IMG/VR virus record: IMGVR_UViG_3300022539_000388
Span: 1-21,109 of that record
DNA length: 21,109 nucleotides
DNA from: a virus
Direction: 5' to 3' (one strand)
A model generated the notes under the pieces. The model did not search any database and had not been told where the DNA came from. It saw nothing but the letters and a program-made list of their open reading frames with translations. Made by a program: the position numbers and the translations under genes. Positions 1 to 21,109 of the stretch are shown in pieces (positions within the stretch are counted from its first letter, which is position 1; each line of letters starts with the position of its first letter).

Positions 1-3000
1 CTCTTCAATGAGAATTTGACCAAGATTGGGCAAACTTCCGCGACCGAAGAGCTAATGGGGTATCTCGGGGCTACGCCGGAAGAGATAACCGAGTTCTTCC
101 AAACGCCCTCTGCTCGCTTCATGACGATAGTTAGCGAAGGCGCTCCCATTTTAAGGGACGCAATTCAGAGCGTCTTTACTGGCATAAAAGTTGATAAGAT
201 GCTTGAGTTTGCCCTGAAAGACCCTGACGCTTTCACGCGTGAGATTTTAGGTAGAGGCTGGACAAGCGATGTAGAAAACCTGCTCTGGCTGCTCTACCCC
301 AATGTTAGCATAGACGAGTTTTTCCCCGCGATGACTGAGCAGGCTATTGAGGCTTGGAGCGATGCCCCGTTGTTTCCCGACTTTGATACTTGGGACGAGT
401 GCGTTTCAGGATTTCCCGGATTTATGGACCTGTGGAACTTCTTTAAGCCAGCCAAGATAGGTGGCGTTGGTATCGGCGTTGTCGGCTCTTACTTTGACAA
501 GTATATCATGCGACCTTGGGAGGGCGCGGTCCTCTTTCTCAGGGCAGAGTTTCAGTGGAGACTCTTTAACGACCAAGATGCCAAAAATTACCTGCTCAGG
601 ATGCGGGAGATAGACAAAAAGTGGGGCACGATGGCGATTTACGCCGAGGAAACCCACTATGCTATGGAGCATTATCTCGGGACCCAGCCTTTTTATGTTG
701 TTGGGCAGGTTGAACTTGCCTCATGGCTTAATCCTGTATTTTTCATACCTATAGGATACGGAGCAGGGTTTATAGCGAAATTTACATCAACGATACCAAT
801 TTTAGGCAGGTCAATGAAGTGGACTGCTGCGGGTGTTCGTGGTATAGAGACCGGTATAATATACCCAATAAAGAAGCCTATTACACTCGGCATTTCCGGC
901 GTTGAGAGGCTAGGTCAAAGATTGGGCGCTGCTCAGACTAACAGGCTGATTAAAGCAGCAGACCACCAGATGCACTTTGAGGAGCTAGTCGCCCTTTCTG
1001 ATGCGGAGATACTGGACAAGCTGATAGTTGATAACTGGCTCAGCCGGTGCATAAAGTTTGGCGCAAGGATACCGGTCTTCAGGCGCGGTATTGAAAGAGG
1101 TCTCGGCTGGCGTATTCTTGCCGAGAGGAACGCTCAGACGGTTGAGGCGATACTTGGCAGGGGCGCTTTGCTCCGCAACTACTTCGCGCGCATGGGTGTA
1201 AATATCAAAAATCCAGTCATCTACAGCATGAGGTCAATCGTCAAAAATCCGGTCAAGTATTTCGGTTTCAACAATCAGGCTTACTCGCAAAAGATGTTTA
1301 GACGCTTGCTGCCCGAACATGCCGGAACTGCCAACGCTGGGACATTTGAGCATGTCTTCACCCACCCCGAAATGTATAGGTGGGATAAGCTCGGCAGGAC
1401 CGCCGAGGTCATGACTCCCAAAGGTCAAGTAATGAGGGTGGATGCCGGACTGAAGTATGTGATGGAGTTCAAGCAGTTTCAGGATGATATTCTGGCGATG
1501 CTGAAGGCTCAAGGAATAGCGCCAGAACATCTGGTTGATGATTGGGTTCACAGGGTCGTCCAAAGGGAAGGCGGTAGGCTGAGGAGAGGTAAAGCCATCG
1601 GCGCTATGCAGCCATACGAGAAGCTGAGGCGCTTTGAGACCATGCAAGAAGGCATTGACTGGTTTATGAAGCATAAGGAACTCGGCGCTCATTACGCCAG
1701 CAATCCGGAAGCCTCTCTCGCGGAGTATATAGAGCAAGCCTTCCGGCGATTAGCTGACGAAAGGTTCGTAGGGTATGTATCAAAGTTTGAGGCGATAGCC
1801 GGACAGAGACCGGCTGCGAAATTACTTGAGACATTCCCCGAGTTGGCTCAGAGGGCGATACTGAGAGCCGAGGAATTCGCTGACACCAAATACTTCACTA
1901 ATGCCATCAACCGAGCCATCAGGGGCGAAAGGTTGCCCGAGCAAACTCTAAGGGCGATAGAGAGGCGCTTTCCCGAATTTGGCTCAAGGTTCAGAGCTTT
2001 GGCGACCGGTCCGGCTGTTGGGGAGGCTCAGTTACGAAAAATAATCGCTCAAAACCAGACGCTCATAGATGACCTGACCACTAGGCTAAGGACAGCAGAA
2101 GCCATTGATATAAACGCGATAAAGAGAAACGCGGTAAGGGACGCGAGGGCTGGCTTGTCCAATGACGCAAAGATGGTTGAAGCCTTTGAGCTTATGGATT
2201 TTGAGGATAGGCTCGCCTTCAGGTCAACTTTTGAAAGCCAGCTTGATGATGTAGGGCGCGTCTGGACTGAGCATAGTCAGGAGCTTGCCGGCATAAAAGA
2301 ATGGCTGGCGCATGACCCTGTTGCCGTCTTCCGTGTGCAGATGGGGAACAGAAGCTACTCGTTAACTCGCTTTCTCAGGGAGGGCGTTTTCCCCGATACT
2401 TTCACAGTAAATGAAGCCCGCGCTCTGATGCTGGGGAAACAGCCGTCTATGGTCATTCAGACGGGAAAGTTCAGGGGCAGAGTGTGGGCTAGAGACGCTC
2501 TGGATGCGGTCGCTGAGCGTTTCCACATGAGCGTTGACGACCTTGAAAATGCAGTAAGACTTCTTGCCGAACAGCGAACTAAGGCGAATGACTTGAGGTT
2601 GCTGTCTGAGATAGTCTCTGGTCGCTACGACCAGATAAAGCGGATGATGGGCATACTTGACGATGTTGAGGCTAGGCTGCGGAATGTCCCTAGACCAAAG
2701 CCCGATGTAGCTATGCCGGCTGAAGGCGCAGCGCCCGAACTAACTCCCATGCCTCAAGCTGCTCAGGATGAGCTATTCGTTCAGGCTGGTAGAGGAAAAG
2801 CCGGACTATCAACTACTCCTGCTGGACTGGTCTATAGAGACGCTGCCGGCAATCCGGTGGTGGTCGTTACCCTTTTCGCTGAAGGCGAATATGTCAGGGT
2901 CGGCGCTGTAGTTTCAAGGGCAAAGGGGCTGCTTGGCGGGAAGGCGGGAAGAGCGATAATCGCGGAGCTTGAGAGGATACCAAACTTGAGGATACCGCCT

Positions 3001-6000
3001 AGAATTGAAATGTCCCCTGCTGGCGCAGCTATAGCCGAGAAATTTATTGCGAGGCAAGAAGCAAGGGGCATACCCAAAGCCGAGATAGGCATGCCGGAAG
3101 CTGGAATACAGAGGGACTTGTTCGGCTTTGAAGCTCCTCATTTCCCGAAGGGTAAGGGGCAAGTTACTCAGATTTCTATGGACGAATATAACCGGCTGGT
3201 GGAATATTGGAGGAAAGCCGGACTGCCTGAAGAGGATATACCGATTGCTCTAAGACCAAGGGTTGCGGGTATATCGGGGCTTGAGACCGCCGGCGCTCCT
3301 AAGCGTATCAGCTTTGATATGCCACCCATTCAATCTGCTGCCGACCGCCTTGCTGAGCTTAAAAGGCTCAGGGCAGAAATAAGGGCGCTCACTGAACAGG
3401 TGAGAATTGAACACCTGACCGCAAAATCAGAGCGCGCTTTGAGAATGGCTCAGATAAGGCAGCCTGCCATTGGGGAAGGTTATATTATGCAGCCTTTCGC
3501 CGGTGGAAAGATTTACAGCGAAGAGTTTATTGATGCTTTCAATAGGTTCTTCGGCTACGAAAAGGGCAGGGGCGAACTGTCCATGATAAGCGACACGGCG
3601 GGTATTCTGAGGATTACCAAAGCAGCGCTTGACTTCTCCTTCCATGCTATTCAGGGCTTGCCTTCTTGGGGGCTTGCTCACGCCTATCTGATGACTAATC
3701 CTGAGCTTGGCGCAAGGATGATGGGGTCGTGGTATAGGAACTACGCGCGCGCCATCGGCTGTTTCTTTAACGAGGGGCTGCTGTCGAGGGCTATTGATAA
3801 CAAGCTCGCGATTTCAGCGCAAAGGATACAATGCGGTGGAAGCTCCCGAGCCATCATGCTCTTTCAAGAATTTGAAATGGCGGGACTAGGCAGGTCGTTT
3901 GAGAGAGCTACGAGAAGGATACCCCTAACGCCATATCAGAGAGCAGAGAGGGCTTGGTTCGCTGCCGGCGAGCTTGTCAGGAATGACTTTTGGGAGATAC
4001 TGTATCCAATCGCAAAGAGGGGCGGTAACGAGTTTCATCTGGCGCGCTCGCTGGACCTGATGACCGGTATCACTGACTCAAGGGCTATGGGAGTTCCTTT
4101 GACAATCAGGCAGATTGAGCAGTCGTTTATCTGGTTTGCTCCTAACTACACCAGAGCTTGCCTGACTTTTCTGGCAGATGTCTTCAGGGGCGGTTACACC
4201 GGCGCTACAGCGCGAAGAGCTTTGGGTGGTATGGTAAGCGCTGGCATTTTCTACTATGGTGCGACTCAGTTCAGTCTTTCAACCTTGAGTGGCAAGACTC
4301 CCGAGCAAGCTATGGAAGATGTTTTGGAAGGCTTCGGCGTTGTCCAAGACCCTATCACCGGCGAGTGGGCGTGGAAGCCGTCAGCCAGATTTATGACGAT
4401 ACAGATAGGCAATTACTACTTCGGCTTCGGTGGCTTCTGGTATGGTCTCATGAGGTTGTCGGGCAACATCATGGCTTGCATCAATGAGGTTGGGGAGAGG
4501 GAAATCATAGACCTGTTCCGGATAATAAAGAACGGCAGCTTTAACAACAAGGATAACCCCTTCATATACTGGTGGTATTCAAGGTCTTCCCCCTTCTTCG
4601 GCTCGGTCTTTGAAGCGTCCACCGGTCGGGACTTTCTCGGGTATCCGATAGAAGGGTGGGAAGAGTATCTGAAGTATATCGCCACCCGCTTTGAGCCTAT
4701 CTGGATGGAGCAAGGTCTTAACTGGCTGGTCCCGACACTGGCAAGAGAGAACGAAATACCGGAAGGCGCAGCGAGATTAGCCGTAGCTCCGTTAGAGCTT
4801 CTTGGCTTGCGGACCTTCCCCGAGGGCGCTTGGGTTAATTTTTACGACAAAGCCAATGAATATATCAACATTCTGCCGGTTGATTTACTCACCGAGTATT
4901 TTGACGAGGACGAGTTAACGAAAATCCTTGAAGTCCAGAGCGAAGGGAAGCTAGAATACAGGCATCTGCCCGAAGCCCTCAAGGTAAGGTTACTCATGAT
5001 GTATGAGGACCTTGAAGAGCTATATATGCTTGCCCAAAACGATAGCTACATGCGTAACAGACCGGAGTGGCAGGCGTGGCAGGATAGTCAGGACCGGAAC
5101 AGAGATTGGTATTATGAGCAGGGCGACACGCTCGTAGATGAGCTTACAGTTGCCATGTCCATTGATACCAGAGAACTCAGGCTGCAATGGAGCGATAGGG
5201 GTCTAGTCTACGGCGCTCACCTTGACGAAATGGAAGCAAGCGGGGTTTACGATGCGGTCTATGAGTATCTGGAAAGGAAGAGAGCCGAGGGCTACAAGTA
5301 TGAGTGGGACCTGAACTTAGCCCTGAGCGAATACATCGCAATCATGTTCTCGGAGTATCCTGACGGCACAGGTGGCATTGATTGGGATGCAAGGGACGAA
5401 GCGATACAGAAGTGGGTAGACTCTTGGGGCGAAGACTGGTATTCGGTGGTTCGGAAGATGTATGCCGACCGGCGCTTGCAGGAAGGGCTAAACCCTATAC
5501 TTGTGAGGCTGGCTGAAGATAAGGACCAGTTAAGCAGGGGGTATTGGGACCTGCCGTATCAGCCCATAATAGACATGACGCTTCTTGACGCAGAAAACGG
5601 AGACATACCCGAAAAATACCTTGCCCTTTGGGAGACATATCAGGGTCTAATGACCGATGAGGCGAGGGCAGCTTTCTTAGAAAACCATCCGGAGCTTGAC
5701 ACGGACTTCAGAGCCGAATACCGGCTGGCTCACCCCGAGACCGATGCCATGCTCGCCCTTTGGGGCTACGGCGGGAAACTTCAGAGCATGGATGCCTATA
5801 ATCTGGTAGTCAAGTGGGGAGAAGAGCTAGGCATACCTCTTGAGCAGATGGGGCTAGGATTACCGCCTCAGAATTTGATTGAGCCATACTTTGAGGCTAA
5901 CCAAACTTCTATGGAGTTCGGTGGTAATAGTGCTCAGATGAAGCTCTGGAAGCTCCAACACGGCGAATATGTGGATTGGGCGGTTGAACAGGGAATATGG

Positions 6001-6501
6001 ACTCAAGGCACAGAGGGCTACAAGCCTGAAGAGTTCTACGAGCTAGAGATACAATGGCATGACTTTGATGTTCGGTATGAGGGCTTGCCGGAAGACAACA
6101 GGCGCAATTTCTTAGAGAAAAACCCTGAGTATCACGCCAGTCGCCGGCGCAGGGATGCTCTCGGGCTTGAAGTCCCCGAGGACCTGCTCGAGACCTATGT
6201 TTTGTGGTATGTGAACTTTGGCTTTAAGCAGCCGGATGATTGGGAATATAACTACTACTTTGAACCCGACTGGTGGCTTCTGGACCATGAGGAGTTCTAC
6301 AACTTCATGGTGGAAGGCGGACACTGGCAGGCTAGGGACTTTAGCGGAGTTCCCACCAGAGAGGTTTGGGCGCTCTATAAGAAATATCTACGCTTGCCTA
6401 CCGGTAAGGTCAGGCTGGTTTTCCGGCATGAGCATAGAGACTTAGACAAGTGGCTGGTATTTAGCTTGGGCTACACGCCTGTAGGCGATAGATGGAAATA
6501 A
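1..6501 (+). CDS. Giant virion-associated polyvalent protein (5' partial)
   Basis: The reading frame is open from base 1 to the TAA at 6499-6501 with no stop before it, so the gene starts upstream; the TTG at 16 is unlikely to be the true start. At least 2166 residues are present. Visible parts, by nucleotide: hydrophobic segments near 460-500 and 690-810; a helical region with coiled-coil character near 2030-2100; a Pro/Ala linker near 2690-2760; a compact alpha/beta stretch at 2818-3066 that looks GNAT-like; a QRDLFG motif near 3113; an Arg/aromatic-rich helical block at 3500-4480 resembling large-polyvalent-protein (LPD38-like) regions; and a Trp/Tyr/Glu-rich C-terminal third with repeats of the form FLExxPE. 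It lies directly before scaffold and coat, so it is probably packaged or ejected with DNA. That role is inference; no catalytic residues are assigned. A tape measure is an alternative, but the position before scaffold argues against it. Confidence 0.75.
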   Translation, partial: LFNENLTKIGQTSATEELMGYLGATPEEITEFFQTPSARFMTIVSEGAPILRDAIQSVFTGIKVDKMLEFALKDPDAFTREILGRGWTSDVENLLWLLYPNVSIDEFFPAMTEQAIEAWSDAPLFPDFDTWDECVSGFPGFMDLWNFFKPAKIGGVGIGVVGSYFDKYIMRPWEGAVLFLRAEFQWRLFNDQDAKNYLLRMREIDKKWGTMAIYAEETHYAMEHYLGTQPFYVVGQVELASWLNPVFFIPIGYGAGFIAKFTSTIPILGRSMKWTAAGVRGIETGIIYPIKKPITLGISGVERLGQRLGAAQTNRLIKAADHQMHFEELVALSDAEILDKLIVDNWLSRCIKFGARIPVFRRGIERGLGWRILAERNAQTVEAILGRGALLRNYFARMGVNIKNPVIYSMRSIVKNPVKYFGFNNQAYSQKMFRRLLPEHAGTANAGTFEHVFTHPEMYRWDKLGRTAEVMTPKGQVMRVDAGLKYVMEFKQFQDDILAMLKAQGIAPEHLVDDWVHRVVQREGGRLRRGKAIGAMQPYEKLRRFETMQEGIDWFMKHKELGAHYASNPEASLAEYIEQAFRRLADERFVGYVSKFEAIAGQRPAAKLLETFPELAQRAILRAEEFADTKYFTNAINRAIRGERLPEQTLRAIERRFPEFGSRFRALATGPAVGEAQLRKIIAQNQTLIDDLTTRLRTAEAIDINAIKRNAVRDARAGLSNDAKMVEAFELMDFEDRLAFRSTFESQLDDVGRVWTEHSQELAGIKEWLAHDPVAVFRVQMGNRSYSLTRFLREGVFPDTFTVNEARALMLGKQPSMVIQTGKFRGRVWARDALDAVAERFHMSVDDLENAVRLLAEQRTKANDLRLLSEIVSGRYDQIKRMMGILDDVEARLRNVPRPKPDVAMPAEGAAPELTPMPQAAQDELFVQAGRGKAGLSTTPAGLVYRDAAGNPVVVVTLFAEGEYVRVGAVVSRAKGLLGGKAGRAIIAELERIPNLRIPPRIEMSPAGAAIAEKFIARQEARGIPKAEIGMPEAGIQRDLFGFEAPHFPKGKGQVTQISMDEYNRLVEYWRKAGLPEEDIPIALRPRVAGISGLETAGAPKRISFDMPPIQSAADRLAELKRLRAEIRALTEQVRIEHLTAKSERALRMAQIRQPAIGEGYIMQPFAGGKIYSEEFIDAFNRFFGYEKGRGELSMISDTAGILRITKAALDFSFHAIQGLPSWGLAHAYLMTNPELGARMMGSWYRNYARAIGCFFNEGLLSRAIDNKLAISAQRIQCGGSSRAIMLFQEFEMAGLGRSFERATRRIPLTPYQRAERAWFAAGELVRNDFWEILYPIAKRGGNEFHLARSLDLMTGITDSRAMGVPLTIRQIEQSFIWFAPNYTRACLTFLADVFRGGYTGATARRALGGMVSAGIFYYGATQFSLSTLSGKTPEQAMEDVLEGFGVVQDPITGEWAWKPSARFMTIQIGNYYFGFGGFWYGLMRLSGNIMACINEVGEREIIDLFRIIKNGSFNNKDNPFIYWWYSRSSPFFGSVFEASTGRDFLGYPIEGWEEYLKYIATRFEPIWMEQGLNWLVPTLARENEIPEGAARLAVAPLELLGLRTFPEGAWVNFYDKANEYINILPVDLLTEYFDEDELTKILEVQSEGKLEYRHLPEALKVRLLMMYEDLEELYMLAQNDSYMRNRPEWQAWQDSQDRNRDWYYEQGDTLVDELTVAMSIDTRELRLQWSDRGLVYGAHLDEMEASGVYDAVYEYLERKRAEGYKYEWDLNLALSEYIAIMFSEYPDGTGGIDWDARDEAIQKWVDSWGEDWYSVVRKMYADRRLQEGLNPILVRLAEDKDQLSRGYWDLPYQPIIDMTLLDAENGDIPEKYLALWETYQGLMTDEARAAFLENHPELDTDFRAEYRLAHPETDAMLALWGYGGKLQSMDAYNLVVKWGEELGIPLEQMGLGLPPQNLIEPYFEANQTSMEFGGNSAQMKLWKLQHGEYVDWAVEQGIWTQGTEGYKPEEFYELEIQWHDFDVRYEGLPEDNRRNFLEKNPEYHASRRRRDALGLEVPEDLLETYVLWYVNFGFKQPDDWEYNYYFEPDWWLLDHEEFYNFMVEGGHWQARDFSGVPTREVWALYKKYLRLPTGKVRLVFRHEHRDLDKWLVFSLGYTPVGDRWK

Positions 6502-6571
6502 AGGGGGTGATAGATGGAAAGTTGACTATCAGGTAATCTGGCATTGAATATTTCAAAGGAGGTTTTTAACT

Positions 6572-7315
6572 ATGCTGGACGAACCCAAACCTGACGCGGA
6601 AGAACACCCTTCCCCTGAAGAAGAGGAACATCCTTCTCCCGAAGAAGAAGGGACTCCAGAGCCACCCAAAGAGAGTTTTACAAGAGCCGAACACGAAAAG
6701 GCGATAAACGACTTGAAGCGTGAGCATGGTCGCGAAGTCAAGACGCTTACTGATGAAAGAGACACGGCGACTGCTGCCCTGACGACCTCTAAAGCAAAGG
6801 TGGATAAGGTTAATGAGAAACTGGATAAAGTCCAGACTCAACTGGACGACCTTGAAGAGGCTAAAGCCAGTGGCAGCGAAGCCGGTATTGACTACATCCA
6901 GAAGCGCAAGGAACTTCGGACGCGGGAAAAGGAACTGCAAACAGAGAGGGATACCCTTGATGCAGATGTAGAAACCCACGCCGAAGAGGTAAGAGTTGGC
7001 AAGCAAGCTAAGTGGGAGAGGGAAATCTTCGCGGTCGCTACTGAGTTTGATATTGATGTAGAAGACCTAGAGGAAGCCAAACCCACTACTGTTGAGCAAG
7101 CCAAGTCTTTTGCCAAGATTATCGCCAAGAAAAAACCAAAGTCAGCACGAAAATCTAAGACCGGTGAAACTCCCACCGAGGAAGAGGAAGCTCCTGACTT
7201 TGAACCCGACTCTGCTAAAACGACCGGAGGTAAAGGTAAATTGACGACCGAGAGTGTGGAGAGAATGCCCATAAGCTCGGTTGCCAAGGAACTAGATAAA
7301 GCCAATAAAGATTAA
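6572..7315 (+). CDS. Capsid scaffold protein
   Basis: This 247-residue, highly charged protein has the composition and position of a phage scaffold, which guides coat assembly and is lost from the mature head. Residues 1-35 are Glu/Pro-rich and contain a duplicated EEHPSPEEE word. About residues 38-145 are heptad-like and rich in Lys, Glu, Asp and Leu, as in a long coiled coil. A Lys-rich stretch near 185-200 is followed by a second acidic segment and a short helical C-terminus, the usual coat-binding end in such proteins. The ATG at 6572 has an excellent AAAGGAGG site at 6555-6562. The coat gene starts 11 bases after its stop. The family is recognised from architecture rather than a conserved motif; a GP20-type minor structural protein is the other name such proteins receive. 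Confidence 0.8.
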   Translation: MLDEPKPDAEEHPSPEEEEHPSPEEEGTPEPPKESFTRAEHEKAINDLKREHGREVKTLTDERDTATAALTTSKAKVDKVNEKLDKVQTQLDDLEEAKASGSEAGIDYIQKRKELRTREKELQTERDTLDADVETHAEEVRVGKQAKWEREIFAVATEFDIDVEDLEEAKPTTVEQAKSFAKIIAKKKPKSARKSKTGETPTEEEEAPDFEPDSAKTTGGKGKLTTESVERMPISSVAKELDKANKD

Positions 7316-7326
7316 CGAGGTGAAAT

Positions 7327-8472
7327 GTGGCAAATACCTTTATCACTCCAACTGTCGTGGCTAAACTGGCTCTACCCACACTCCTAAATAATTGGGTGAT
7401 GGCTGGTTTGGTGCACAGGGACTACTCCAAGGAGTTCCGAAAGATAGGGGAGAAGGTAAGGATACGGAAGCCTGCTACTCTCACAACCGTTGAGTTTGAC
7501 GGCGACCTGACTGGAACATATCAGAATGTCGTTGAGAGCTTTGTAGATGTTCTTCTGGACACCATTTTGGTTGTGCCAATAGAAGTCTCGGCTAAAGACA
7601 TGACTCTTGATATTGTTAACTTCAATCAACAGGTCGTTGAGCCTGCTATGCAGTCTCTCGGACAAAAGGTTGATGAGAAGCTGGCTCTGCTTTACAAGGA
7701 CATCCCCTACTTCATGGACATAGACTCAACATCGGCTGCCACCATCCTTGCCAGCTTGCTGGGCGCTCGTAAAATCCAGAACGACAACAAGGTCCCCTTC
7801 GCTCAGGCAAGAAACGCAGTCATGTCCACCTTGACCACCGCCACCCTGCTCGGGCTGGATGCCTTCAGAGATTTGGATAAGTCTGGCGATACAAAGGCGC
7901 TGAAAGAAGCGTCCTTGGGGCGCAAATTCGGCTATCAATACTTTGAGAGCCAGAATGTCCAGCATCACACTAGAGGCACTACCGATGGGCTGGGTGCGGT
8001 AACAGCAGATGAGCCAAAGGGCGAGACTTCCATCGGTCTTGATACCCTTGGCACAGGCACAATCAAGAAGGGGACAATCATCACCTTTACGGCTAAGGCT
8101 GGTCAGTATGTCGTTACGGCGGACGCTGCCATATCTGGCAATGCTGCCACTGTAATAATATACCCCGGACTGGCTGAATTGGTAGTTGCAACGACAGTAG
8201 CAGACTTGCATGGTCCGGATGCTACTGACCACCCAATCACCAGCATGGAAAACCTGATGTTCCACAAGAATTGCTTTGCCCTCGTAACTGCGCCTCTGGC
8301 AGAGCCGATTGGCGGGGCTAAGGGCGTAACCATGAACTATAAGGGGCTGACCATCAATGTAGTCTACGACTATGTTTCGCAGCAGATGAAGAACATCATG
8401 ACCTTCTCCATCCTCTGTGGTTTCAAGACGCTGACTCCGGAACTCGGCGTTAGACTATACGAGGCAAGTTGA
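7327..8472 (+). CDS. Major capsid protein, P22 coat-like (HK97 fold)
   Basis: The 381-residue product forms the icosahedral head lattice. Its N-terminus (MANTFITPTVVAKLAL, then LVHRDYSKEF and a VRIRKP word by about residue 50) closely follows the start of P22 gp5-type coat proteins, and the length is in the range of that family. A Gly/Thr/Ala-rich stretch around residues 215-290 may be an inserted surface domain of the kind seen in P22-like coats. The start is GTG at 7327 with a GAGGTG site ten bases upstream; the overlapping ATG at 7325 is out of frame. The gene sits immediately after the scaffold gene, the normal order for a coat that needs a scaffold. The coat assignment is secure; the inserted-domain idea is inference. 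Confidence 0.92.
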   Translation: MANTFITPTVVAKLALPTLLNNWVMAGLVHRDYSKEFRKIGEKVRIRKPATLTTVEFDGDLTGTYQNVVESFVDVLLDTILVVPIEVSAKDMTLDIVNFNQQVVEPAMQSLGQKVDEKLALLYKDIPYFMDIDSTSAATILASLLGARKIQNDNKVPFAQARNAVMSTLTTATLLGLDAFRDLDKSGDTKALKEASLGRKFGYQYFESQNVQHHTRGTTDGLGAVTADEPKGETSIGLDTLGTGTIKKGTIITFTAKAGQYVVTADAAISGNAATVIIYPGLAELVVATTVADLHGPDATDHPITSMENLMFHKNCFALVTAPLAEPIGGAKGVTMNYKGLTINVVYDYVSQQMKNIMTFSILCGFKTLTPELGVRLYEAS

Positions 8473-8577
8473 CCTTAGACGCTTTGGGGGGTTGGCGATA
8501 AACTAATCCCCGCAAAGGTCGTAAGAGAGGAGGATAAAGCCCTCTCCTAAAACAAAATCTTATAAAGGAGAACGAAC

Positions 8578-9183: not shown

Positions 9184-9203
9184 ACGAGGTTAGAGTAGGT
9201 CTA

Positions 9204-9236
9204 AAGGGGGGAGTGGCGCTTAGTTACTCCCCCCTT
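9204..9236 (+). terminator. Strong hairpin, probable (partial) transcription terminator
   Basis: Bases 9204-9214 (AAGGGGGGAGT) and 9226-9236 (ACTCCCCCCTT) are perfect reverse complements, giving an 11-bp stem with six consecutive G:C pairs and an 11-base loop. The tail after the stem (TTATCAAAT) is only weakly U-rich, so read-through or mRNA 3'-end protection is as likely as full termination. It separates the abundant coat and decoration genes from the lower-demand connector and tail genes, a sensible place to reduce transcription. Confidence 0.6.
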
Positions 9237-10509: not shown

Positions 10510-10920
10510 GTGGCTGAGTTTTCCGATTATTACGAGGATAAAATCATTGACCACATGCTCCGAGGACAGGCGTTTACTCCGCCTGCCACTGTCTATCTGG
10601 CGCTCTTCACCGCCGTTACTGGTCTTGAGGCTGATAACCCCACCGCCGAGGTTAGCGGTGGCTCTTACGCTCGACAGGCAATCACGCTAACAGCAGCTTC
10701 CGGCGGTGCGACAACGAACTCCGGCGCGATTACCTTCCCTACGGCTACGGCTGCTTGGGGGGTGGTAACGCATGGGGCTATCGTTGACCATCTTTCCAAT
10801 GTAACTTGGGGCACTGATGTTCATGTCCTTCTGCATAGTCCTCTGGATGCGAGCAAGGATGTTGGCATTGGCGACACCTTCAAGGTCTCTGATGGCGAGC
10901 TTGATTTGACTGTAGCCTGA
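10510..10920 (+). CDS. Small virion protein of the common 'TPPATVYLALFT' type
   Basis: The 136-residue beta-rich product belongs to a widespread phage structural type. It has an N-terminal helix ending in HMLRG, then TPPATVYLALFTA, a Tyr-Ala-Arg-Gln (YARQAITLTAA) strand, a TFPTATAAWG segment, a GAIVDH strand and a C-terminal DGELDLTVA. Such proteins occur among tail or head-fibre genes (sometimes labelled gp80-like). The exact virion location is not known from sequence. The start is GTG at 10510, preceded by AAGGAGG; the next gene starts 18 bases after the stop with its own GGAGG. I am confident of the type but not of its role. Confidence 0.7.
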   Translation: MAEFSDYYEDKIIDHMLRGQAFTPPATVYLALFTAVTGLEADNPTAEVSGGSYARQAITLTAASGGATTNSGAITFPTATAAWGVVTHGAIVDHLSNVTWGTDVHVLLHSPLDASKDVGIGDTFKVSDGELDLTVA

Positions 10921-12122: not shown

Positions 12123-12123
12123 C

Positions 12124-14741: not shown

Positions 14742-15602
14742 GTGGCAGAAGCAGGCGAACTTAAAATCATCGGGACCGACTTCTGGCTCATGAACGCTCT
14801 CGGGGCAGGGCATAGCTTTACCGGCGAAGAGGTTGATGGGACTTTTGGCGAGAAGGGCAGGCTAAAGGTCAAGGGCGATTACATTCATTACATGGACTGG
14901 CATGGCGACCAGAGGCGCTTGCTTGGCAGTCTGACCGGCAACACCGGCGAAGCCGGCGATATAAGGATTAAGGGCAGATACCTTTACTACATGGACTACT
15001 CAGAAAAAGAGCGAGTCCTTATTAAGCCGATATACCCTGTCATGAATTTTAGCGGTTGGGTTAGGCATTATGAAATTCCGCCCCCTTATTTCACTTGGGA
15101 CGAACTGAGAGAGCAGGTAGGGAATGACACTAATTACGGAACAAATATTTACATGGCGAATGTCGCGCCGGCTGGTCAAGAGGATAAATGGCAGACATTA
15201 ACTAGGGGCATTTTAACCTTTGATACCTCTGAGATTGTAGGCAATGTATCCGCAGCTTTTCTGTATTTCAAGGTGTCTTCTAAAGAAGACACCTTGGGCT
15301 TAGCGCCTGACATCGTTTGCGTTTCTGTGAACCCTCAAGGCGAGGAGCACTTGGAAGGACCTGATTACTCGGAGTTCGGCACATTGCATAAAAGCGATAT
15401 TTTGCCTTGGACGAGCCATGTCTTAGGGGAGTATTCGGTCTTCACTTTGAGTCCGTCCTCTATAGTTGATGGCGATTTAACCCACTTGGGCATTAGAGTT
15501 CGCAAAGACATCACCGGCGTAGACCCGACATGGATTGCAGATACAGGCTGCGCTCTTAGCAGCGCTTTGAGTGAGGTATATCTAATCGTTCTTGAAGATT
15601 AA
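14742..15602 (+). CDS. Tail-tip / putative receptor-binding protein
   Basis: The 286-residue product begins with GTG immediately after the preceding TAA. Residues 1-97 hold three related beta units: LKIIGTDFWLMN, LKVKGDYIHYMDW and IRIKGRYLYYMDY, each followed by a charged turn, a design often found at tail-tip attachment ends. Residues about 100-286 form one beta-rich domain with an ILTFDTSEIVGNVSAAFLYF strand region, resembling carbohydrate-binding jelly-roll (DNRLRE/CBM-like) domains, and a hydrophobic final strand VYLIVLED. Last position in the tail block and a C-terminal lectin-like domain suggest host recognition; that is inference. A 28-bp near-perfect palindrome lies inside the coding sequence. 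Confidence 0.55.
   Translation: MAEAGELKIIGTDFWLMNALGAGHSFTGEEVDGTFGEKGRLKVKGDYIHYMDWHGDQRRLLGSLTGNTGEAGDIRIKGRYLYYMDYSEKERVLIKPIYPVMNFSGWVRHYEIPPPYFTWDELREQVGNDTNYGTNIYMANVAPAGQEDKWQTLTRGILTFDTSEIVGNVSAAFLYFKVSSKEDTLGLAPDIVCVSVNPQGEEHLEGPDYSEFGTLHKSDILPWTSHVLGEYSVFTLSPSSIVDGDLTHLGIRVRKDITGVDPTWIADTGCALSSALSEVYLIVLED
15269..15296 (+). repeat. 13-bp perfect inverted repeat inside a coding sequence
   Basis: CAAGGTGTCTTCT at 15269-15281 and AGAAGACACCTTG at 15284-15296 are exact reverse complements separated by two bases. It encodes the in-frame segment KVSSKEDTL of the tail-tip protein. No T-tract follows, so it does not look like a simple terminator. Confidence 0.9.
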
Positions 15603-15612
15603 GGGGGTGGAT

Positions 15613-15822
15613 ATGGACAACGAGAGCTATAAGCTGAAAACGAGGCGCTATCTGTCATGGGGTCTTGCCGGAGTAGCTTCTATAGCCCTGCTCTTCATGG
15701 TCATTTTCGGCGCTTGCACCGGTAACAACGCCATACTTTTCACAGGCTCTTCGACTTTGATTGCTGAGCTTGCCGGCATTACCGGCTTCTATCTCGGTCA
15801 GAGACGAAGCAATGGTGGCTAA
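15613..15822 (+). CDS. Two-helix membrane protein, possible holin
   Basis: The 69-residue protein starts at ATG 15613, which has AAGGGGGTGG at 15601-15610; an upstream in-frame TTG at 15592 overlaps the previous gene and has no such site. After a charged N-terminus (DNESYKLKTRRYL) there are two hydrophobic segments, about residues 13-36 (LSWGLAGVASIALLFMVIFG) and 42-62 (ILFTGSSTLIAELAGITGF), then a short basic Gln-Arg-Arg end. Size, two transmembrane helices, a charged tail and a place at the end of the structural block fit a class II-type holin, but no endolysin gene is adjacent. A short membrane protein of other function cannot be excluded. Confidence 0.55.
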   Translation: MDNESYKLKTRRYLSWGLAGVASIALLFMVIFGACTGNNAILFTGSSTLIAELAGITGFYLGQRRSNGG

Positions 15823-15879
15823 AAAGCATCAGACGCGCTGAGAGCCAAATCTGACAACATACCCTTATTCTGAGTGTAA

Positions 15880-15921
15880 TCCCCCCTCTCCACTATGGAG
15901 AGGGGGGGCTTTCCTTGTTTT
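15880..15921 (+). terminator. Rho-independent terminator of the structural operon
   Basis: CCCCCCTCTCC (15881-15891) pairs perfectly with GGAGAGGGGGG (15897-15907) around a 5-base loop, with an extra U-G pair outside, and is followed by a T-rich tail CTTTCCTTGTTTT (15909-15921). It lies 58 bases after the holin-like gene and before the early promoter, so it insulates the late block from the early block. Confidence 0.9.
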
Positions 15922-15947
15922 GTGGGGACTGGCGGGCGCTGTAATAC

Positions 15948-15959
15948 TTTCCGCGGAAA
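15948..15959 (+). promoter_or_regulatory. 12-bp perfect palindrome, candidate operator
   Basis: TTTCCGCGGAAA is a perfect palindrome in the gap between the terminator and the early promoter, about 68 bases upstream of the -35 element. Its position fits a dimeric regulator site, but no second copy was seen nearby. Apart from this palindrome and the promoter, bases 15922-16077 show nothing coding. Confidence 0.35.
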
Positions 15960-16026
15960 CATTTTGTTGCCTACAGGATACAAAGATGTTCACTGACGAA
16001 TTTCCTAAAACTCGTCTAAAAGGGTA

Positions 16027-16055
16027 TTGACAGTAGGTAAACCCTATGGTAAACT
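16027..16055 (+). promoter_or_regulatory. Consensus sigma70-type promoter for the early operon
   Basis: TTGACA at 16027-16032, a 17-base spacer, and TAAACT at 16050-16055 make a near-consensus bacterial promoter reading into the early genes; transcription would start near 16062. Two direct copies of GGTAAAC (16036-16042 and 16048-16054, 12 bp apart) lie within spacer and -10 and could be an operator. The -35 TTG is also an in-frame start codon of the regulator frame, but it would precede the predicted transcript. Confidence 0.75.
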
Positions 16056-16077
16056 TTCGGGGTCAGGGGGTGTGAAA

Positions 16078-16257
16078 GTGCCAAAGATGGTCAAGCTCCA
16101 CAATAACACCTACGACAACCTCAAACTGCTCAAGAAGCCCAAAGAGTCTTTCAGTGAAGTTACCGACCGGCTTATCGCTCTCTACCATACTATGCAGAAA
16201 ATCCAAGCTGAAGAAGACAGCGAAGGGGGCGAAGCCCCCTCAGAAAATAAAGACTGA
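16078..16257 (+). CDS. Small VapB/RHH-like DNA-binding regulator
   Basis: The chosen start is GTG 16078, giving 59 residues, with AGGGGGT about six bases upstream and downstream of the predicted transcription start; GTG 16072 and ATG 16087 are alternatives. The N-terminal core (MVKLHNNTYDNLKLLKKP then KESFSEVTDRLIALYH) has the strand-helix-helix pattern of VapB/DUF217-type antitoxin-like ribbon-helix-helix proteins, where 'T-Y--L--LK-p-ESFS-V--RLI' is the hallmark. The tail is acidic. No toxin gene (such as a PIN-domain VapC) follows, so it is more likely the operon's own transcription regulator than half of a toxin-antitoxin pair. The GGTAAAC repeats in the promoter are its obvious candidate target; that link is inference. 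Confidence 0.65.
   Translation: MPKMVKLHNNTYDNLKLLKKPKESFSEVTDRLIALYHTMQKIQAEEDSEGGEAPSENKD
16224..16240 (+). promoter_or_regulatory. G/C hairpin near the end of the regulator gene
   Basis: AGGGGGC (16224-16230) and GCCCCCT (16234-16240) form a perfect 7-bp stem with a GAA triloop inside the 3' end of the regulator coding sequence, 40 bases before the next start. No T-tract follows, so mRNA stabilisation or translational control is more likely than termination. Confidence 0.4.
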
Positions 16258-16279
16258 CCAATGACAAAGGGGGAGAAAG

Positions 16280-16786
16280 ATGCCACAACCTAAAGCTAAG
16301 GCTGCGTCTAAAGCTAAGGTAGGACCTGAAACTAAAACCAGAAAGCCAAAGGATTTCACAGAGAGCGCCGAGAACCTCTGCAATCCGCCCGATGTTTTCA
16401 AACTGCTTAACAAGCTGCATAAGCATCAGGCTGTGCTCGCCACACTAGAGGACAGTATCCCTGCGGAACTCAGGGCGCAAATGGGCGATGCAAAGGAGCT
16501 AATAACCGACACGATTGACGAAATCAAATCAGCAGTCAAGAAGTCCGGCTCATTCCAAGACATTGAAGCCGAGCATTACGCCGTCAGATACCGGAGCATC
16601 CGCAAAGAATACTTGGCAAAGCCTTTCGCCAAGCAATACGAGAAGCTCGCGCCGGCGGTTATCGTGGATGCCGTTAATGTTGAAGTGCTTGAGCAGCTAA
16701 TCAGGGGCGGTGTTATAGCTGAGGCAGACCTTAAAGCCAAAGGCATTATTTCGGAAAAGATAACCCACTCATTCTATATCAGGTAG
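16280..16786 (+). CDS. Conserved-looking early protein of unknown function
   Basis: The 168-residue product has a Lys/Ala-rich, probably disordered N-terminus (residues 1-28), a central helical region (about 40-95, with LLNKLHKHQAVLATLEDSIP and ELITDTIDEIKSAV), and an alpha/beta C-terminal half with HYAVRYR, LAPAVIVDAVNVEVLEQLI and a closing SEKITHSFYIR. The ATG at 16280 follows GGGGGAG and lies 22 bases after the regulator; the annealing-protein gene starts six bases after its stop. Proteins beside recT/bet genes are often recombination partners or nuclease modulators, but no motif here supports a definite role, and I do not recognise the family. Confidence 0.65.
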   Translation: MPQPKAKAASKAKVGPETKTRKPKDFTESAENLCNPPDVFKLLNKLHKHQAVLATLEDSIPAELRAQMGDAKELITDTIDEIKSAVKKSGSFQDIEAEHYAVRYRSIRKEYLAKPFAKQYEKLAPAVIVDAVNVEVLEQLIRGGVIAEADLKAKGIISEKITHSFYIR

Positions 16787-16791
16787 CCGGC

Positions 16792-17976
16792 ATGATAACC
16801 GAAGAGGACATGTCCCATGCGGACATGGAGAAGCGCGTTGAGACTCACTGGTGCGGTGAGTGTGGCGCTAGATTAAGTGTAGCTTGGGGGGGCGCTTTTG
16901 GCTTGGACAGTTGGATACTCCGGTGTTCAGCGAATATAGACCATAAAACTATAACCGACTATAAAAAGCCTACTGCTCAAGAAGAGCAGGTAGAGAAGGA
17001 AATCAGGAGGATAAGAGGCATGGATACCAAGGCTTTAATGAACATGGACCAGACCCAAATGCTCGCGCGGATAGCGCAGGCGAAATTCCCCAAGGACCTG
17101 ACAGCACCGGAGAGGCAACTCATGGCTGAAATCTCAATAAGCTATGGTCTTGACCCTCTCATGAATGAGCTTATGATATATCAGGGCAACCCCTATCCAA
17201 CAATCAATGCTCGTTATCGTAAAGCTCAGGAGACCGAGAAGTTTGACGGCATTGATACGAGACCGGCGACAAAGGAAGAGCGCGCTGTGCGCAATGCCAA
17301 AGAGGGCGACTATCTCTATAGGTGTGAAGTGTGGGTAAAGGGCGCTTCTCATCCCTTTGTCGGTTGGGGTAGAGTTCGGGGGGAAGAGACAAAGAGTAGT
17401 GAGAAGAGGGCGCACCTTCCCATAGTCAAAGACCCCGACCGGCAGGCTGAGAAGAGGGCTGAGGCTATGGGGCTACGCAAGGGTTTCAGTATGCCAGTCC
17501 CCTTCAAGAGTTGGGAAGAGTTTGAGGAAGAGAAAGCCGAGCAAGTGATTAAAGATGAGGTCATAGATGTTGACCCCTTGACCGGCGAGGTAATTGAGCC
17601 TAAAGGCGAGAAGCCGAAGGCTGAAAAGAAAGCCCCGCCTAAGAAGGCAGCGCCCCCAAAGGCTGAAGTCAAGCAGCCCGAGCCGAAAGCGCCGGCAGAG
17701 GTAAAAGAGCCGGAGGCGAAGGCAGAGGAGAGTCAGGAAGCACCTTCGCTTGGGGAAAAAGAGGCAGAGGCGGAAGCGAAGGAAGAGCCACCGCCGGACG
17801 ACTCTGAGCCACCGAAGACTGCTGCGGACCTTTTTGAGCGACTGGCGCAGGCGAAGGGCTGGAAGGGCACTCAATACTGTCAGACTTGGATTACTACCAC
17901 TTTCCCCGAGATAACTCCTGAGAGGATAGAGAATGACCCCGCCGGCGTGTGGGAACAGATACAACCATTGCTCTGA
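16792..17976 (+). CDS. RecT/Bet-like single-strand annealing protein with zinc finger
   Basis: The product is 394 residues. Residues about 75-240 match the layout of RecT/Redbeta-superfamily annealing proteins: LTAPERQLMAEISISYGLDP, then a YQGNPYPTINARYRKA strand-loop, a FDGIDTRP word, a WGRVRGEE strand and a DRQAEKRAEAMGLRKGF helix. These proteins coat and anneal complementary single strands in recombination-dependent replication. Unusual for the family, an N-terminal zinc-finger-like segment is present (C21 and C24 in CGEC, C45, H51). Residues about 265-345 are a Lys/Glu/Pro/Ala linker, and the last ~50 (AADLFERLAQAKGW onward) form a small helical domain. The start at 16792 has only a weak AGG upstream; ATG 16810 or 16825 could be used instead, and both keep the finger. 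No exonuclease partner is seen before the terminal nuclease. Confidence 0.7.
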   Translation: MITEEDMSHADMEKRVETHWCGECGARLSVAWGGAFGLDSWILRCSANIDHKTITDYKKPTAQEEQVEKEIRRIRGMDTKALMNMDQTQMLARIAQAKFPKDLTAPERQLMAEISISYGLDPLMNELMIYQGNPYPTINARYRKAQETEKFDGIDTRPATKEERAVRNAKEGDYLYRCEVWVKGASHPFVGWGRVRGEETKSSEKRAHLPIVKDPDRQAEKRAEAMGLRKGFSMPVPFKSWEEFEEEKAEQVIKDEVIDVDPLTGEVIEPKGEKPKAEKKAPPKKAAPPKAEVKQPEPKAPAEVKEPEAKAEESQEAPSLGEKEAEAEAKEEPPPDDSEPPKTAADLFERLAQAKGWKGTQYCQTWITTTFPEITPERIENDPAGVWEQIQPLL

Positions 17977-18067
17977 TGAGGGGCTTCAAGGCATAAAGTA
18001 TAAATGCTGGTGTCCCGAAGTGGAACTATCGGTTGCTCTGGATACTACGCCTGATAATGCAGGGTAG
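17933..18067 (+). CDS. Small cysteine-rich (zinc-ribbon-like) protein
   Basis: A 44-codon frame begins at ATG 17933 inside the end of the annealing-protein gene and runs to TAG at 18065-18067. The sequence upstream (GAGAGGATAGAG) contains a usable ribosome-binding site. The product has C6, H12, C13, C25 and C27 (the last two as KCWCPEV), a plausible four-ligand metal site, followed by a Val/Leu/Asp-rich end. It accounts for most of the gap between the annealing protein and the initiator. The gene is short, so chance is possible; spacing of the cysteines, the start signal and the overlap typical of this operon favour a real gene. Confidence 0.45.
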   Translation: MTPPACGNRYNHCSDEGLQGIKYKCWCPEVELSVALDTTPDNAG

Positions 18068-18126
18068 GAACGAAAGAGACGGCGAGAACTACCGAGCCAG
18101 CCTGAGCCGACCGAGAGGGGTATTAA

Positions 18127-18594
18127 GTGCCAATACGGAACTTTGATAGCGGTTTCTGGAATGACCCGTCTTTGGTTATCAAACTACCCAAGGACGGCAA
18201 GCTGCTATTCGCTTACCTCTTCACCTGTGCCCATTGCACTCCATCAGGTCTTTACTACATAGCTGAAGAGACCATACACAACGAGACCGGAATAGCAAAA
18301 GATGACCTCGCCCCACTTTTTGAGTTACTCAAGCCTAAAATTGAATGGTATCCAGACGACAATCTGGTATGGGTAAAGAACTTCGTTGGTCGCCAAACTT
18401 CCTCTCCACTATTCCTCAAGGCGGTAGGCAAAAGCCTGCGCCAAATCCACAATGAGACAGTGGTCCAAACCCTGCTTGAATATAACAAGAAGAAGTATCA
18501 CCTTGACCTTGAGCATTATTACGAGGAAGCCGACAAGAGTCAGGGTGAGAAGCCGGTAACAAAGAAGCGCGCAAAGGTAGCGAAAATAGAATAA
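18127..18594 (+). CDS. Replication initiator, phage replisome-organizer N-terminal type
   Basis: This 155-residue protein matches the winged-helix domain found at the N-terminus of phage replisome organizers and DnaD-like initiators: GFWNDPSLVIKLPKDGKLLFAY at the start, then SGLYYIAEETIHNETGI, a helix KDDLAPLFELLKPK, and the hallmark DDNLVWVKNFVGRQTSSPLF strand-helix. It should bind the phage origin and recruit the helicase loader encoded next. The C-terminal ~25 residues are Lys-rich (KKRAKVAK), useful for DNA contact. It is shorter than full organizers, lacking a separate DnaD-like C-terminal domain. The start is GTG 18127 with GAGAGGGG upstream. The stop overlaps the following start (TAATG), tying it to the loader. 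Confidence 0.8.
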   Translation: MPIRNFDSGFWNDPSLVIKLPKDGKLLFAYLFTCAHCTPSGLYYIAEETIHNETGIAKDDLAPLFELLKPKIEWYPDDNLVWVKNFVGRQTSSPLFLKAVGKSLRQIHNETVVQTLLEYNKKKYHLDLEHYYEEADKSQGEKPVTKKRAKVAKIE

Positions 18595-19397
18595 TGACTA
18601 ACTACACCATTGAGCGAAAGGTCTGCGCGAACCCCGACTGCGGTAAAGAGTATGATGCAAAGGTCGTTCAATGCTTGGGCGAAAACTTAGTCATGGGCGG
18701 TGGCTTCTGTCACGATTGCCGGAAAATACTTGAAGCCAATGAGCGAGAGGCAGAGAAGATTAAGCAGGAGTTGGCTAACAAGGGGCAGAGGCGGTTATGG
18801 CGTAAAAGGTGCGGGATACCGCCCAAGTTCCAAAAAAAGAACTTCGCGAACTTTGACCAGACGCTACAGGCGAAATACTACAGAATATGCCTGAAGTATG
18901 CCGATGAATACCCGATACTAACGCCGGCGGGTTACAAGTCTCTCATGCTCTTCTCAGAGGACTCATGGGGAGTCGGTAAGACTCATCTAGTCGGCGCTAT
19001 CGGGCACAAGATACTGGACCGGTGGGATGGTGAAGATGTTAGTTGTCCTGTGCTCTTCGTCAGCGAGCCGGACCTCTACACGCGGATACAGGCGACCTAT
19101 AAAGACAGGGGTTTCGGGGGCGAGACCGAGGCGGACATTATCAATCAACTTACTCGGGTAAGTCTCCTGATTATGGATGATGTCGGGAAGAGGAGCGTTG
19201 CGGACCCGAAGTTCGTCAGGCGTATAATGTTCTCAGTCATTGACGGCAGATATAAAACTCTGCTGCCGATGGTCCTGACCGCTAACCTCACTCCTGACCA
19301 ACTCTCTGATTACATGGGCGATGCGCCGATGGACCGGCGCGCTGAAATGTGCGGGGTCTTTTACAAGATTGAAGGCGACAGCTATCGGATTAGGTAA
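18594..19397 (+). CDS. DnaC/IstB-like helicase loader ATPase
   Basis: The 267-residue AAA+ protein loads replicative helicase at the initiator-opened origin. Visible motifs: Walker A at residues 123-130 (DSWGVGKT), Walker B LLIMDD at 191-196, a sensor-1 Asn at 231 in VLTAN, and a DRR box at 247-249 for the arginine finger. The first Walker A glycine is replaced by Asp123, but the Gly-x-Gly-Lys-Thr core is intact. The N-terminus carries a zinc-binding cluster (C11, C16, C39, C42, with C27 nearby) followed by a charged helix, an arrangement seen in some phage DnaC-like loaders. It is translationally coupled to the initiator and ends in a short tandem repeat before the DUF5131 gene. IstB of a transposon is excluded by context. 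Confidence 0.88.
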   Translation: MTNYTIERKVCANPDCGKEYDAKVVQCLGENLVMGGGFCHDCRKILEANEREAEKIKQELANKGQRRLWRKRCGIPPKFQKKNFANFDQTLQAKYYRICLKYADEYPILTPAGYKSLMLFSEDSWGVGKTHLVGAIGHKILDRWDGEDVSCPVLFVSEPDLYTRIQATYKDRGFGGETEADIINQLTRVSLLIMDDVGKRSVADPKFVRRIMFSVIDGRYKTLLPMVLTANLTPDQLSDYMGDAPMDRRAEMCGVFYKIEGDSYRIR

Positions 19398-19427
19398 AGC
19401 ATTAAGGTAAAGCATTAAGGTAAAGCA
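19393..19427 (+). repeat. 13-bp tandem repeat at a gene junction
   Basis: GGTAAAGCATTAA occurs at 19393-19405 and 19406-19418, followed by a partial copy GGTAAAGCA at 19419-19427 that abuts the next ATG. The first copy contains the TAA stop of the helicase loader (19395-19397). Each unit boundary reads TAAGG, the only Shine-Dalgarno-like sequence before the DUF5131 gene. Confidence 0.85.
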
Positions 19428-20339
19428 ATGAATAGAGCAACCAGCGCTACCGGTTGGGTCAGAAACCCTGTCGTGAAGTCTCCTAAGCTAGACCCGCGTC
19501 TGGCAAGTAGCTATGAGTTGGGCTGGACATATAACCCCATCACCGGCTGCCTGAACCACGACAACGGCTTGTGCAAAGGTGGGGGCTTCCCCTGCTATGC
19601 TTACAAGCTGGCTCATGGGCGGTTGAGGCAAAGGTATCTAGCGAATGATAACTGCCTTGATGCGGAGAGGGCAGGTATAGATACTGACCCCTTCTATCCC
19701 CGCTTGTGGGAAGATAGGCTGTCGTGGTTTATTCCAAGATACGCAGGCAGCCGACACTTGCGAAAGCCAAGAGGTATTTTTGTATGCGATATGGGGGAAC
19801 TCTTTGGCGACTGGATACCGAAAGAGTGGACTACTAAGGTGCTTAATATAGCAAAGCTGTGGGATGAGCACCGCTTCTACCTGCTCACCAAACAGCCCCA
19901 AAACCTGCCGAAGTGGTCGCCGTTCCCCGATAACTGCTGGGTGGGGGTTACGGCTACGGATACCAGAATGGCTTTAGAGGCTTGCCTGAAGCTCGGCGAT
20001 ATTGAAGCCTCTGTCCGCTACCTCTCCATTGAACCTATGCTCCATGAGATAAATCTACCACCTGAGCACCTAACAGCCTGCAAGATAGGGCAGGTAATCA
20101 TCGGCGCACAGACCAAGCCCTATAAACCGCCCGAGATAGAGTGGGTGAAAGAGATTGTTGAGGCTGCTGATAGGGCGAGAATACCGGTGTTCCTGAAGGA
20201 TAACCTGATGCCTCTCTTTCAATCGTCTGTGAAGCTAGTTAAAACCCCCTCTAATTTAGTGAAAGCTCCTTATGGGAGATACGAGGGCATCGTAGGAGAG
20301 CCGTTGGAATTTAAGCTAAGACAGGAGATACCGAGCTAA
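19428..20339 (+). CDS. Phage Gp37/Gp68 family protein (DUF5131)
   Basis: The 303-residue product matches this phage-encoded family: an N-terminal YNPITGC motif, then cysteines C41, C49 and C56 with C56 in PCYAYKLA, an IFVCDMGELFGDWIP block, a RFYLLTKQPQNLPKW strand-helix, a WVGVTATD block, a YLSIEPMLHEI segment and a late VIIGAQT and IPVFLKDNL. The three-cysteine motif is reminiscent of metal or iron-sulfur cluster binding, but the spacing here (C-x7-C-x6-C) is longer than the usual family spacing, and no biochemical role is established to my knowledge. It is placed among replication genes. Translation probably relies on coupling or on the repeated TAAGG, since no strong ribosome-binding site precedes the ATG. 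Confidence 0.85.
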   Translation: MNRATSATGWVRNPVVKSPKLDPRLASSYELGWTYNPITGCLNHDNGLCKGGGFPCYAYKLAHGRLRQRYLANDNCLDAERAGIDTDPFYPRLWEDRLSWFIPRYAGSRHLRKPRGIFVCDMGELFGDWIPKEWTTKVLNIAKLWDEHRFYLLTKQPQNLPKWSPFPDNCWVGVTATDTRMALEACLKLGDIEASVRYLSIEPMLHEINLPPEHLTACKIGQVIIGAQTKPYKPPEIEWVKEIVEAADRARIPVFLKDNLMPLFQSSVKLVKTPSNLVKAPYGRYEGIVGEPLEFKLRQEIPS

Positions 20340-20614
20340 TGCCAGTAGTCATGGAGATTACCGCCCCGCATGGAAGCTGCCGGATAGAAGAGTTCCCGAG
20401 CATAGAGGAGTTCTACGAGTCTGAGCTTGGCAAGGGCATGAACCGCCGAATGTCTGAGGAGGGGTGGAACAAACTAAGCGTGGCTGAAAGGTATCGGTAT
20501 TATTTCGGCGCTGCGAAGCGGATAGACAGCCAACACCGGCAGGGCATCCGAGCCTTTATGAGACAGCACAAAAAGAGGGGGAAGAATGGGCAGAAACATC
20601 ACCGAACAGGATAA
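20339..20614 (+). CDS. Small early protein of unknown function
   Basis: The 91-residue product starts at ATG 20339, overlapping the stop of the DUF5131 gene (TAATG), so it is translated by coupling. It begins with a short strand (VVMEITAPHGSCRIEEF), continues with an acidic helix (SIEEFYESELGKGM), a helix with aromatic residues (AERYRYYFGAAKRI), and ends in a strongly basic stretch (RQHKKRGKNGQKHHRTG) that could contact nucleic acid. The last 29 bases overlap the next gene in another frame. I do not recognise the family. Confidence 0.6.
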   Translation: MPVVMEITAPHGSCRIEEFPSIEEFYESELGKGMNRRMSEEGWNKLSVAERYRYYFGAAKRIDSQHRQGIRAFMRQHKKRGKNGQKHHRTG

Positions 20615-20936
20615 GCTGATTAACGCTGTGCCTATATTTGACTTCGTGGACTGTGGAGAAAAGCGCTATGAGGTTCACACTGTTGGCATGGGTGGGTTTG
20701 CTCAGTTCATAAACCCCAGCCTTGCACTCCGGAATGAAATGTTTGGCATCAGTGGCGTAGCCGAGACGATGATTTGGCTGGTCAATGAAAAAAATATACG
20801 CGTGGACATGATGAACATACTCCATTGCCTGCGCTACAACGACTACGACAGGGCTGTTTTGTCTCACCACCGGTGCATAGATAGGCGGAAGGCGGGAGAC
20901 GACAGCTTCTTCATCGGAGACGGAGAGCCAAAATGA
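20586..20936 (+). CDS. Early protein of unknown function
   Basis: This 116-residue protein starts at ATG 20586 with a GAGGGGG site upstream, inside the tail of the preceding gene. The N-terminal part has alternating hydrophobic residues (INAVPIFDFVDCGEKRYEVHTVG), the middle is helical (GISGVAETMIWLVNEKNIRVDMMNIL), and the C-terminus has HHRCIDRRKAGDDSFFIGDGE, with several cysteines and histidines that do not form a recognisable cluster. Its stop overlaps the next start (ATGA). No family is recognised; position suggests a DNA-metabolism accessory protein. Confidence 0.55.
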   Translation: MGRNITEQDKLINAVPIFDFVDCGEKRYEVHTVGMGGFAQFINPSLALRNEMFGISGVAETMIWLVNEKNIRVDMMNILHCLRYNDYDRAVLSHHRCIDRRKAGDDSFFIGDGEPK

Positions 20937-21109
20937 CCGAAGAAGAGTTTGCCAGTGGGGTAGAGGACCTGCTTGAAATTTACCACTGGCTCTGGTGTCA
21001 TTTCCGACCGGCGCGGACCATAAGGGGCTGGCGGACCGCCGTATCAGGGCATAAGGGCTTGCTGGACTATATCGCTGCGAGACCACCGCGCCTGCTGTTT
21101 TTTGAACTA
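20933..21109 (+). CDS. VRR-NUC/Hjc-like nuclease (3' partial)
   Basis: The frame begins at ATG 20933, overlapping the previous stop, and runs open for 59 codons to the end of the window. After an acidic first helix, the sequence HFRPARTIRGWRT, then SGHKGLLDYIAARPPRLLFF ending in Glu-Leu, follows the conserved start of VRR-NUC and archaeal-Hjc-like nucleases. In those enzymes an Asp in a 'G-x-x-D' turn and a Glu in the next strand (usually Glu-x-Lys) form the metal site; the Asp and Glu are visible, the Lys would be just past the window. Such nucleases resolve Holliday junctions or cut flaps, fitting the recombination cassette here. This ORF would be missed by a 60-residue cutoff. Confidence 0.75.
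   Translation, partial: MTEEEFASGVEDLLEIYHWLWCHFRPARTIRGWRTAVSGHKGLLDYIAARPPRLLFFEL

Follow-up and report, generated by a model that had tools for sequence, protein, structure and literature searches.

Why should a phage genome be free of several short palindromic sequences at once, and what could have removed them? The question is raised by the window, by which we mean the whole 21,109-bp stretch of DNA analyzed here (IMG/VR virus record IMGVR_UViG_3300022539_000388). Since it has no terminal repeat and an open frame runs off its 5' end, we treated it as a fragment; it comes from an uncultured tailed dsDNA phage with a P22-type coat protein. Eight motifs have no copy in it, namely GGCC, GATC, GTAC, ACGT, CCWGG, GCSGC, GAWTC and CGWCG. 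The genes referred to below are the following.

1..6501, + strand: open frame of 2166 codons, open at the 5' end (eight motifs: 137 copies expected, 0 found)
7327..8472, + strand: major coat protein of the P22 coat family (phrog_283, E 8.6e-68; PF11651, E 2.8e-46)
10510..10920, + strand: head protein (phrog_240, E 8.8e-24)
18127..18594, + strand: DnaD-like helicase loader or replisome organiser (phrog_1701, E 4.1e-9)
18594..19397, + strand: DnaC-like helicase loader, an early gene (phrog_50, E 1.1e-48)
19428..20339, + strand: DUF5131 protein of 303 aa (PF07505, E 6e-30)

The long frame at 1..6501 is related over its full length to ORFs of locus L001 and of other members of the phage group, and it gave no family match when searched in pieces against PHROG and Pfam. 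Among cultured phages the coat protein has only distant relatives, and a 701-aa protein has no relative. A small protein at 16027-16257 has a VapB-type antitoxin match (PF02697, E 4.9e-6) that lies near the threshold, just under the cut-off, and no toxin was recognised in the adjoining position.

Counts and expectations of the missing words

The first-pass annotation of this DNA claimed that GATC, GTAC, GGCC, ACGT and CCWGG are wholly absent while other palindromes are common. Exact counts in the 21,109 bp bear out both statements: GATC, GTAC, GGCC, ACGT, CCAGG and CCTGG are each found 0 times, and AGCT occurs 103 times, CATG 89, CCGG 128 and GCGC 116. The four named tetramers are the only ones absent from both strands. 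The same annotation suggested a comparison with Markov and codon-shuffled backgrounds, and both null models predict hundreds of sites where 0 were found. Under the maximal-order Markov model the expectations are 66 for GATC, 53 for GTAC, 113 for GGCC, 25 for ACGT and 46 for CCAGG/CCTGG. The stricter null, in which synonymous codons are permuted inside each gene with proteins and codon usage held fixed, gives 83 for GGCC, 58 for GATC, 53 for GTAC, 41 for CCWGG and 41 for ACGT. Three more zero words had been overlooked, GCSGC (0 observed, 45 expected from the shuffle), CGWCG (0/35) and GAWTC (0/29), as had three that are nearly lost, TCGA (4/75), CCSGG (2/26) and GTSAC (1/17). The surviving copies of the last three, by exact count and without strand, are as follows.

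3784..3787, then 6188, 10671 and 15751: the four TCGA sites
415..419, then 8164: the two CCSGG sites
18709..18713: the sole GTSAC site

Each of the eight zero motifs thus stands at 0 against 29-83 expected copies, and together they are observed 0 times against a mean of 387 and a minimum of 342 in 200 synonymous shuffles. Sites are therefore eliminated from the window when elimination is taken as an observed/expected ratio under 0.1 with more than 15 copies expected from a background that allows for composition and codons. The loss extends to longer words. Of the 64 six-base palindromes, 36 do not occur, where 3.2 absences are expected and no shuffle gave more than 7; of 182 palindromic REBASE specificities, 78 have no site in the window (16.5 expected). 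When chosen motifs were masked in turn in a greedy decomposition, weaker losses remained, for example SAGCTS 0/29, GGMKCC 0/18 and CCRYGG 1/14. Losses of this kind should not be tallied as separate systems, because SAGCTS and several six-base words are mildly low in relatives too. A separate observation concerns GGNNCC, of which 11 copies survive (679, 680, 4728, 5306, 5546, 7791, 9372, 13692, 14238, 14772 and 19202); all 11 are of the GGGACC/GGTCCC or GGACCC forms, and every other GGNNCC form is absent.

The avoidance had been described as running through structural and early genes alike, and in fact 21 of 21 genes are empty of the motifs, including the coat gene (0 copies, 27 expected) and the DnaC-like gene (0 copies, 17 expected). 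All three codon phases are empty. A single centre base decides whether a word is lost: GCSGC is absent and GCWGC is at 68/44 (observed/expected), GAWTC is absent and GASTC is at 37/30, and CGWCG is absent and CGSCG is at 78/59. Reversed words are ordinary, as with CCGG at 128/97 against GGCC at 0, and the only empty reversal is GGSCC, which itself includes GGCC. Across four gene segments aligned with L001 there are 30 identical dipeptides that L001 encodes with an avoided word; at 29 of them the window uses a site-free synonymous pair. The loss acts on the DNA, not on codons or on one reading frame. Because every gene and phase is affected and words reversed or with the other centre are normal, the loss cannot be put down to composition or codon bias. 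The two null models, the phase counts and the reversed-word controls together rule out composition, codon-pair effects and general palindrome avoidance.

Relatives, lifestyle and an adjoining host gene

The coat protein was used as the query for relatives, which returned 80 viral loci, and as the basis of a tree. In this tree the window pairs with L005 (record G004) with 99% SH-aLRT, and L023 (record G011) and L012 form a separate clade, also with 99% SH-aLRT; it is a quick tree, and with only 45% of the L023 row filled the precise placement of G011 is less certain. All close relatives have nearly lost GATC, and their CGWCG stands far below expectation. The remaining avoided words are moderately reduced or normal in most of them, G004 included (observed/expected: GGCC 49/130, GTAC 18/87, CCWGG 75/73). 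Since many of the words missing here are present in most close relatives, a clade-wide composition bias is ruled out. G011 is as extreme as the window, with GATC at 1/108, GTAC 0/93, GGCC 0/97, TCGA 0/110, CATG 1/73, CCGG 1/78, CCWGG 0/47, GAWTC 0/52, CGWCG 0/45 and GCSGC 2/48. The two share nine motifs at an observed/expected ratio below 0.1 (hypergeometric p 2.4e-5); by the same limit ACGT and GTSAC are avoided in the window and not in G011, and CATG, CCGG, CGCG and GGWCC in G011 and not in the window. Subsets are seen elsewhere in the family, in L136 (record G338; GATC 0/98, TCGA 2/81, CGCG 2/32) and in L142 and L144, and L141 has no avoidance. The relatives are graded, patchwork forms of the same loss, and the extreme state either evolved on two occasions or persisted in two lineages while it was relaxed elsewhere.

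To place these numbers on one scale, we tested 48 palindromic words of four or five bases, each with an expectation of 10 or more, and counted those observed at no more than 5% of expectation. The window has 9 (8 independent, as GGSCC contains GGCC) and G011 has 13 (12 independent). Other family members have 0-5, seven reference phages, some represented in part, have 0-5, and 76 unrelated viral contigs have 0-3. Two further groups of loci are recorded here as separate observations: L046, L047, L049 and L050, from another group of coat relatives, each have CCGG, CTAG and CCWGG at 0, a second multi-motif pattern, and the distant relatives L019 and L025, both short contigs, have zero GATC, GTAC, ACGT and CCGG and 0-1 GGCC.

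Of the records searched, G003, G004 and G340 alone gave a tyrosine integrase, and G004 and G008 alone an N6/N4 methyltransferase; PF00145 and PF07508 had no match in these records. The anatomy of G004 is that of an integrated prophage, with a XerC-like integrase, a tRNA-Ala and then a partial host clpC gene in L088:15742-18844. G011 (L085/L086) is complete at 39 kb and terminally redundant (144 bp), and has no integrase or methyltransferase match; it does carry a Gp3-like recombination directionality factor (Pfam) without an integrase, as if of temperate phage descent. Within the 21-kb window no integrase was found and the search for PF01555 and PF00145 methyltransferases gave no match, and the sites of the window are absent, not protected by methyltransferases of its own. 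Lifestyle as the sole driver is ruled out by G006, which is complete and terminally redundant (114 bp), has no integrase or methyltransferase match and yet strongly avoids only GATC and CGWCG. The absence of lysogeny may thus allow extreme avoidance without guaranteeing it, and the enzymes of the host must matter.

The 2-kb clp gene adjoining G004 is most like clpC (61-64% to ClpC and about 55% to true ClpB of other genomes). It has GATC at 0/7.7 (observed/expected), GTAC 0/3.1, GGCC 0/11.6, ACGT 0/2.5 and TCGA 1/6.8. Pooled, these five tetramers are observed once against 31.7 expected (lowest shuffle 20), and six control clpC genes from other genomes have 30-84 copies against 39-77 expected. 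CCWGG (9/3.7), CCSGG (6/4.0), GCSGC (6/5.9), CCGG and GCGC are normal or high in the same gene; CGWCG (2/4.2) and GAWTC (1/2.1) have counts too few to judge. The first-pass annotation had asked whether the host genome itself lacks the avoided words. For one 2-kb clpC gene in the host of the sister phage this appears to be so for the five tetramers and not so for CCWGG, CCSGG and GCSGC. The host lineage itself thus seems to avoid the five tetramers, as judged from one gene in the host of a sister phage, and the loss of CCWGG, CCSGG and GCSGC looks like phage-only selection.

Candidate hosts were also sought directly. Scanning genome contigs with the coat protein yielded three loci: two in Bacillota MAGs with 40-43% identity, and one in an Acidimicrobiia MAG with 41% over part of the protein. 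A search for a close host in the class and phylum of one MAG found none, the best ClpC match being about 65%, and a ClpC search of viral contigs gave only homologues of 46-49%, which were reused as unrelated controls. The motif list is itself a testable fingerprint for finding the host.

Probable restriction-site avoidance and its alternatives

We consider that the window has been purged by restriction-site avoidance against many Type II restriction-modification (R-M) systems, with a probability of about 0.82. All eight motifs are in the REBASE-derived list, as HaeIII-, MboI-, RsaI-, HpyCH4IV-, EcoRII-, TauI-, TfiI- and Hpy99I-type specificities. The core of this reading is well supported, because the lost words are specificities listed in REBASE, codon phase makes no difference to the loss, W and S centres are told apart, and subsets of the losses are found in relatives. 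It agrees in part with the first-pass annotation, which had proposed several type II systems: selection against several short Type II sites stands, and the restriction enzymes in the host, as the selective agent, we infer. The host of the window would likewise resemble that of the sister phage.

On this reading, infecting DNA would meet a large number of orthodox Type II enzymes that recognise words of 4-6 bp, any unmethylated site would be potentially lethal, and site-free synonymous or neutral variants would be selected until no site was left. The loss of GATC, GTAC, GGCC, ACGT and nearly all TCGA appears to reflect an old, lineage-wide R-M pressure that shaped the host chromosome too. As CCWGG, CCSGG and GCSGC are gone from the phage and normal in the sampled host gene, their loss most likely comes from systems of particular strains or of alternative hosts. 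GAWTC and CGWCG could belong to either the tetramer layer or the phage-only layer, and the phage would end with the union of the specificities it met. Against restriction-site avoidance it has to be said that so many enzymes are demanding for a single host, and that the sister prophage G004 keeps moderate numbers of GGCC and GTAC. A wider proposal, which we put forward tentatively and regard as doubtful though possible, is that a host group with an unusually large, recurrent Type II panel, or with one modular multi-target defence, purges its own tetramers and has driven separate phage clades to drop the same approximately nine to twelve motifs, so that the phages recode their whole genomes instead of relying on methylation or inhibitors.

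Compositional mimicry, in which the host lacks the words through mutation bias, repair or self-restriction and the phage matches it without being cut itself, would account for a clpC gene beside G004 that lacks exactly the five tetramers of the window. We find it unlikely, since that gene retains CCWGG, CCSGG and GCSGC, which are gone from the window, the prophage G004 resident in that chromosome retains many of the tetramers, and zero counts with W/S discrimination are hard to get from mutation bias. One multi-specific or non-R-M sequence-dependent defence, such as a nuclease that recognises several palindromes or a system that depends on phosphorothioate, would be a shared agent of the kind expected if two separate clades lose the same motif group. 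This is less probable still: the main motifs are all standard Type II specificities and the motif sets vary word by word, with CATG and CCGG lost in G011 but not in the window and ACGT the other way round, and such differences among relatives fit separable systems. An artefact of statistics or composition, arising from codon usage, dinucleotide bias or a general avoidance of palindromes, has next to no probability and is already refuted by the counts, even though some other palindromes are mildly depleted (CTAG 32/47, AATT 42/70), given what the Markov and shuffle models predict, the empty codon phases and the normal reversed and other-centre words.

Comparison with known systems

Rusinov et al. 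(2018, PMC6286503) described site elimination chiefly in dsDNA phages that are not temperate and for sites of orthodox Type II systems. The window is like those phages in that short palindromic Type II sites are nearly all removed, presumably by the same selection, and unlike them in that, within 21 kb, eight specificities have no site left and at least three others hardly any. The reference phages tested here have eliminated one site or a few, and the window is matched in its extreme state by another clade of this uncultured phage group. The mechanism is known; what is exceptional is how many words have been removed together. One phage genome can thus evade many specificities through synonymous substitutions that leave its proteins conserved, and the relatives, graded from no avoidance in L141 to near-total loss, provide a natural experiment on the trade-off among restriction, lysogeny and methyltransferases.

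In bacterial genomes Rusinov et al. (2015, PMC4687349) reported avoidance where orthodox Type II systems are long-lived. The clpC adjoining G004, the one gene seen, resembles such hosts in being without the five tetramers, and differs from them in that CCWGG, CCSGG and GCSGC are not avoided. Phage-encoded DNA methyltransferases are another answer to the same pressure, and G004 and G008 carry genes of the N6/N4 type. Unlike methyltransferase-protected phages, the window and the complete G011 have no such match, and in them the sites are missing instead.
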